A stretch of 64,000 bases of DNA from Paramecium sonneborni (lineage: Eukaryota; Ciliophora; Oligohymenophorea; Peniculida; Parameciidae). Position numbers and translations under genes: made by a program. The DNA is taken from positions 235,441 through 299,440 of the forward strand of contig CAJJDN010000013.1 of NCBI GenBank assembly GCA_905182985.1, given 5' to 3'. The stretch's first letter is position 1. Every line of letters starts with the position of its first letter. The notes below the pieces were generated by a model. That model saw nothing but the letters and a program-made list of their open reading frames with translations, was not told where the DNA came from and searched no databases. Positions 39,997 to 41,537 of this stretch are shown here, in pieces.

Positions 39997-41537
<1,541 letters not shown>

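Follow-up and report, generated by a model that had tools for sequence, protein, structure and literature searches.

The window, a stretch of 64,000 nucleotides from Paramecium sonneborni, carries a gene for a large thioredoxin reductase (TrxR) of the mammalian type, in which the UGA at codon 487 is very probably read as selenocysteine (Sec) by way of a SECIS, giving a penultimate Sec in a Gly-Cys-Sec-Gly tail, and the UGA at codon 489 is read as stop. Sec at the first of the two codons had been proposed in an initial annotation of the window, and the proposal is supported by membership of the protein in the TrxR/TGR family, by the tails of its paralogues, by a SECIS-like element in the 3'UTR and by tRNA-Sec and eEFSec in the genome. 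A G+C-rich hairpin, which the initial annotation does not mention, follows directly after the stop, and the chances that it has a role in decoding appear to us about even. At the level of sequence the frame, the family, the paralogues, the hairpin, the SECIS-like element and the presence of tRNA-Sec, eEFSec and SecS are established. The features are listed in Table 1.

Table 1. Features of the TrxR locus, with positions in the window.
Feature	Position	Strand	Remarks
TrxR gene (large thioredoxin reductase)	41537-39997	minus	4 exons, code 6, 488 residues, Sec at 487 (proposed)
TrxR exons	41537-41296, 41270-41105, 41080-40088, 40062-39997	minus	
TrxR intron 1	41295-41271	minus	25 nt, GTA...TAG; removal restores the frame and the alignment
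TrxR intron 2	41104-41081	minus	24 nt
TrxR intron 3	40087-40063	minus	25 nt
TGA proposed as Sec, codon 487	40005-40003	minus	
TGA stop, codon 489	39999-39997	minus	next in-frame TGA 23 codons downstream
Stop-adjacent G+C-rich hairpin, candidate Sec redefinition element	39996-39970	minus	11 bp, loop UAAUU
SECIS-like element with enclosing helix I, drawn as three-way junction	39915-39811	minus	
Side hairpin within helix I, immediately 5' of the AUGA core	39897-39874	minus	8 bp
SECIS core: AUGA(A), helix II, apical loop with AAA, UGAA	39870-39832	minus	score 9.5
Thioredoxin-domain and TPR_20 protein, convergent with TrxR	38622-39714	plus	

Positions 40011-39997 of the minus strand read GGT TGT TGA GGT TGA (Gly-Cys-UGA-Gly-UGA), which is the codon plan Gly-Cys-Sec-Gly-stop that had been described earlier without a strand. 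The two TGAs had been placed eight bases apart; they are 6 nt apart from start to start, with 3 nt between them. A reading on the plus strand yielded no protein and was rejected. With code 6 and the three introns removed, the spliced frame from the ATG at 41537 comprises 489 codons and contains TGA exactly twice, at codons 487 and 489. Gln is encoded by TAA or TAG 16 times, by CAA once and never by CAG in this frame, and the TAA codons for Gln226 and Gln440 align with Gln in thioredoxin reductase 2 (1zdl), the best match in PDB, in agreement with the assignment of TAA and TAG to Gln in the initial annotation. The length of intron 2 is a multiple of three and the intron contains an in-frame TGA. 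If it were retained, the mRNA bearing the SECIS-like element would contain an additional upstream UGA.

The protein matched the TrxR/TGR model TIGR01438 with 656.6 bits over residues 6-488 (cut-off 475.85), and 1zdl, which we take to be mouse thioredoxin reductase 2, aligned over residues 4-488 with the tail included. A CVNVGC motif is located at residues 53-58, and the closest named relative, from Paramecium octaurelia (P0001), is 94% identical.

The genome, a 91.5-Mb assembly of 289 contigs with the window gene on contig C13, gave 28 matches to the TrxR protein when counted exon by exon, and tails were checked in 9 of the 20 loci that were fetched. Four genes, named here after their contigs, were found to have a UGA-Gly/Ala-UGA tail. 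These are the window gene (C13); its close twin C10, which is 93% identical over the main exon; C107, which is 67% identical to the window gene and ends GCUG; and C150, which is 41-47% identical depending on the exon and ends GCUA. The divergent C150 gene (C150:290303-294163, L018) has beside it what seems to be an incomplete tandem duplicate of its 5' region. On C158 and C287 the TrxR-like genes (L015 and L016) terminate before the redox tail (...EEIVQMQTWK) and have no Cys-Sec; the C287 protein shares its last 30 residues with P0035, a protein labelled P. sonneborni. A further TrxR relative is located on C161 (L017), and no UGA-Gly/Ala-UGA tail was found in the TrxR-like loci on C41 and C51 and at C107:42199.

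The DNA pattern GGNTGYTGAGSNTGA occurred five times in the genome, in the four TrxR genes and at one site on C12 without TrxR sequence upstream, and its reversed control occurred twice. We also determined how often a stop is followed by a TGA as the second codon past it. This was the case for 16 of 668 stops, and the codon between was Gly or Ala in 2 of the 668, both of them TrxR paralogues (C107 and C150). The 668 stops are the ends of mechanical open frames of at least 150 codons in the window and the fetched loci, most of which are not genes; the window gene and its C10 twin are outside this set because their last exon does not extend as a long open frame.

SECIS candidates were sought with the eukaryotic core pattern (AUGA, helix II, AA in the apical loop and KGA) and listed from a score of 7.0 in the window and 7.5 in the loci. 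The element in the TrxR 3'UTR was, with 9.5, the best of the four that scored at least 7.0 on both strands of the window, and the next scored 8.0. The Markov expectation for a score of at least 9 is 0.2 per 128 kb of strand (mean of 20 same-size sequences). At 7.5 and above two elements were seen in the window against 2.75 expected, and since this count is not above expectation it is the high score and the location that support the candidate. It is located on the coding strand of TrxR, in the 3'UTR, 132 nt past UGA-Sec. In the paralogues the corresponding distances are 130 nt (C10), 123 nt (C107) and 61 nt (C150). The C107 candidate, with a quite different sequence, scored 10.3 and that of C10 scored 9.0; the C150 candidate reached just 6.1 because of two mismatches. 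Three unrelated sites in other fetched loci scored 7.6 to 8.1. The SECIS models of Rfam gave no match in the window at the gathering score and none in the 3'UTR or the four TrxR loci at E-values up to 10.

The predicted folds of these elements were found to be branched in all four genes, and in none of them was the standard single unbranched SECIS stem of helix I, internal loop and helix II obtained. With the core held unpaired, a side hairpin of 8, 9, 6 or 7 bp lies between helix I and the AUGA core in each gene. Unconstrained folds also placed it within the enclosing helix in four of four, with the core then partly paired in C107 and C150. The branched shape arose by chance in 25, 31, 18 and 32 of 300 trials with resampled flanks and in 26, 25, 22 and 30 of 300 with random window flanks. 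These controls required a side hairpin of at least 6 bp and a helix I of at least 7 bp, thresholds that were chosen after the structures had been seen, and for the shuffles each flank was resampled at first order. As C13 and C10 are twins of recent origin, three rather than four independent cases count; a chance origin of the shape in all three, at about 6-11% each, is unlikely but not impossible. Judged from these models, the SECIS of Paramecium may be branched, with a three-way junction. We met no branched SECIS by title in the open-licence literature.

The elements of C13 and C10 differ by nine substitutions and a 2-nt gap. Three of the substitutions are in the arms of helix I and all preserve pairing, one breaks a weak G-U pair closing the apical loop, and five are, like the gap, in loops. 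When 121 nt of the window element were folded, the minimum-energy structure contained no helix II and was no better than shuffles (z -0.75), and in a 91-nt fold helix II did form (z -1.31). Folded with flanks, the C13 element was unexceptional in energy, with 36 of 300 resamplings as good, compared to 0 of 300 for each of C10, C107 and C150. The C107 element was misaligned by MAFFT.

The convergent neighbour of TrxR also ends at TGA, in line, for this one gene, with the earlier statement that every other gene of the window stops at TGA, and its stop bounds the TrxR 3'UTR. A gene for a thioredoxin and TPR protein, presumably CnoX/YbbN-like, is found tail to tail with a thioredoxin reductase gene.

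The initial annotation had let its claim depend on the presence of tRNA-Sec and EFsec in the genome, and both were found. A tRNA-Sec with the anticodon UCA is located at C45:132279-132365 (64.4 bits, cut-off 47). The remaining 11 of the 12 matches of this search were below the cut-off, and the seven of them that were fetched read as tRNA-Ser (five) and tRNA-Leu (two). eEFSec is located at C127:80708-81466, the best of 39 selB matches in the genome. Its translated piece matched eEFSec in PDB (5e-78) and PF21208 euk_SelB_III (93.6 bits, cut-off 27), and with the selB model, scored exon by exon, it reached 153.2 bits, below the cut-off of 242.25. SecS was found at C10:583950-585029 (TIGR03531, 573.6 bits, cut-off 224.85). 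SPS, at C169:6122-6965 (L049), was recognised by two matches side by side (103.2 and 86.9 bits), neither of which reaches the cut-off of 125 by itself, and a PSTK-like P-loop kinase at C18:349578 gave matches that are weak but specific (TIGR03574, 59.1 bits, below the cut-off of 290.5; PSTK in PDB, 2e-8).

Of the whole Sec machinery that had further been claimed for this organism, tRNA-Sec, eEFSec, SecS and a Cys-type SPS were found, together with a PSTK-like kinase as a candidate, and SBP2 was not found among the genomic matches to PF01248 that were read. We read 34 of these 38 matches, and all resemble ribosomal or snoRNP proteins, by their look presumably eL8, eL30, eS12, NHP2 and SNU13; the other four are small pieces that adjoin eL30-like matches. 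Two weak SBP2 candidates on C9 and C11 were discarded, as their sequences read like SNU13, and a human SBP2 domain, used as an approximate query, had no match in the genome, an outcome that by itself carries no weight.

Sec was rejected for SPS, where the catalytic position is Cys (KGCGCKVPQ), and for GPx, where Cys occupies the catalytic position in all five readable loci (L030, L031, L034, L036 and L038) and L040 is too divergent. Among the three families examined (TrxR, GPx and SPS) TrxR was the only Sec candidate, and since the SPS and readable GPx genes are of Cys type, Sec may be used chiefly by TrxR in this organism.

The stop-adjacent hairpin, AUCCCCUAGCC-UAAUU-GGCUAGGGGAU, is located directly 3' of UGA-489 in surroundings of 23% G+C. 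When 31,982 stretches of 36 nt from the window were folded, it was the strongest of all, at -22.6 kcal/mol; the next independent one had -14.2 kcal/mol and the same palindrome on the opposite strand -21.5 kcal/mol. None of 200 shuffles of its own sequence was as good (z -4.94). Its core, CCCTAGC-N(3-10)-GCTAGGG, was found at exactly three sites in 91.5 Mb, in every case immediately downstream of a Sec-TrxR stop (C13, C10 and C107), and the reversed pattern at none. The C10 hairpin differs from that of C13 by one pair-preserving A-to-G change and one change in the loop. That of C107 is CCCUAGCU-UUAAACAG-AGCUAGGG, and in its core the innermost pair is changed on both sides from C-G to U-A, a compensatory change that preserves the RNA stem. 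The pairs of the C107 hairpin were read from folds and pattern matches, as the MAFFT alignment shifts its 3' arm. A stable stem-loop a few nucleotides past UGA-Sec, as expected of a Sec redefinition element, is present in three genes, and its stem starts at a distance of 6 nt (C13 and C10) or 9 nt (C107) from UGA-Sec.

The 45-nt stretches after the stop were also compared with 667 such stretches from mechanical open frames, giving z -8.7 for C13, -8.8 for C10 and -5.5 for C107. The strongest of the 667 was the C107 stretch after its UGA-Sec (-19.4 kcal/mol), followed by -12.9 kcal/mol; C13 and C10 are outside the set. No stop-adjacent hairpin was found in the C150 gene (0.0 kcal/mol over 45 nt), so, provided that this gene is functional, Sec insertion does not in general require the hairpin. 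A bacterial-type SECIS was rejected for the stop-adjacent hairpin, since the AUGA/KGA core is missing from it and a proper candidate for the SECIS is located further downstream.

It could be argued that UGA-487 is a true stop, that the protein ends ...KEGC and that UGA-Gly-UGA belongs to the 3'UTR. This is how the public models of P. octaurelia (P0001) and P. pentaurelia (P0002) have it; both are 486 aa long and end KEGC, two residues short with Sec-Gly omitted. Gene finders using code 6 would set the stop at UGA-487. For selenoproteins, however, a model that lacks Sec is just the annotation error to be expected. A Gly or Ala codon and a second UGA kept in four paralogues, set against the rarity of such a TGA among the 668 stops, also speak against a true stop, as do the SECIS-like element and the Sec machinery, and we consider a true stop very improbable. 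Still less credible to us is a readthrough without Sec, in which a tRNA for Cys or Trp, or another near-cognate one, would decode UGA-487 with the help of the hairpin. Redefinition elements can indeed increase Sec-independent readthrough (PMC4561486). However, tRNA-Sec, eEFSec and SecS are retained although SPS and the readable GPx carry Cys, and because of this some gene must use the machinery.

More weight has to be given to the idea that the hairpin has nothing to do with decoding and acts either in the 3'UTR, on stability or localisation of the mRNA or on 3'-end formation, or as a protein-binding palindrome in the DNA. We regard this as quite possible, though on the whole somewhat improbable. 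The hairpin is wholly outside the coding frame, its CUAG core is palindromic, the primary sequence of its arms is conserved, as in a protein site, and the C150 gene does without it. Against this, its distance of 6 or 9 nt from UGA-Sec is that of known redefinition elements, and the compensatory change in C107 keeps the RNA stem. A general 3'-end or stability signal was rejected, since the core is present nowhere else in the genome.

For Sec at UGA-487 we infer the following course of events, which includes Sec insertion itself, the function of the SECIS and the role of the hairpin. tRNA-Sec(UCA) and eEFSec would be recruited by the 3'UTR SECIS, and the ribosome would decode UGA-487 as Sec. With UGA-487 in the A site, the hairpin would just be meeting the mRNA entrance of the ribosome; recoding stem-loops make contact with the ribosome at about this distance, 6 nt downstream of the A-site codon, which is the spacing of frameshift signals. 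This encounter would slow termination and favour Sec at UGA-487. The hairpin would already be unwound when UGA-489 enters the A site, and termination would win. That geometry gives two UGAs 3 nt apart opposite meanings by means of the hairpin, and that the SECIS is in addition branched in Paramecium, is a tentative proposal that we think is rather unlikely to hold as a whole. If the part on geometry were true, the rule would be simple, with the same codon being Sec first and stop next. The choice between Sec and stop is most acute where every stop is UGA and both meanings adjoin in one mRNA.

That UGA can serve both as the only stop and as the Sec codon of a TrxR has been known from Tetrahymena since 2008 (PMC2612030), and the finding is for that reason less surprising than the initial annotation held. 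In Tetrahymena, by sequence, UGA is both the only stop and a Sec codon, and three TrxR, two GPx and one SPS2 were predicted (PMC2612030). The Sec-TrxR genes of Tetrahymena thermophila (TTHERM_00486500, TTHERM_00823430 and TTHERM_00047660; Coyne et al., 2008, PMC2612030) share with the window gene the ciliate origin, the double use of UGA, the family and a SECIS in the 3'UTR. They differ in that no stop-adjacent hairpin appears in the passages of that description at hand, and the SPS2 reported there as a selenoprotein contrasts with the Cys-type SPS found here (PMC2612030). When five of the six SECIS stretches published for Tetrahymena (PMC2612030) were folded, a side hairpin inside helix I was found in none of the five. 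The cropped stretches of the two that belong to TrxR gave no helix I, and in them the core is preceded by a hairpin, so that the branched form, as modelled, could be older than Paramecium.

A tRNA-Sec is also reported for Ichthyophthirius and for one other ciliate (PMC3341644; PMC10553269). The TrxR of Condylostoma magnum and Parduczia likewise shows UGA as both stop and Sec in one ciliate, but there UGA also has a third meaning, Trp, and the Sec codon is described as "shortly before" the SECIS, compared to about 130 nt here (PMC4967479). No report of a Sec-TrxR from Paramecium was met among titles and abstract openings in the open-licence literature, nor in the Paramecium passages of PMC7409322 and PMC2612030.

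Mammalian TrxR1 and TrxR2 have the same Gly-Cys-Sec-Gly tail and domain plan as the Paramecium protein. The tail Cys in the thioredoxin reductase chains of PDB presumably stands for Sec. In mammals the standard code is used and the Sec-Gly tail is followed by a stop other than UGA, and we know of no stop-adjacent hairpin in their TrxR genes.

To our knowledge, functionally tested elements of the redefinition type are known only from vertebrates. In human SelN a stem-loop 6 nt past UGA-Sec was reported to raise Sec insertion (PMC3628699; also PMC8704476), and so was stem-loop 1 of human SelS, a protein with a penultimate Sec, which starts 9 nt past UGA-Sec and 3 nt into the 3'UTR (PMC3628699). 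The spacings of the Paramecium hairpins, 6 and 9 nt, are identical to those reported for these two elements (PMC3628699). The known elements are from human genes and are unrelated in sequence to the Paramecium hairpin, the function of which is putative. Its role in decoding, if true, would extend functionally tested elements of this type to ciliates, and with a conserved, gene-specific hairpin spaced like the human redefinition elements, the way in which Sec and stop are told apart becomes open to direct test in a ciliate.
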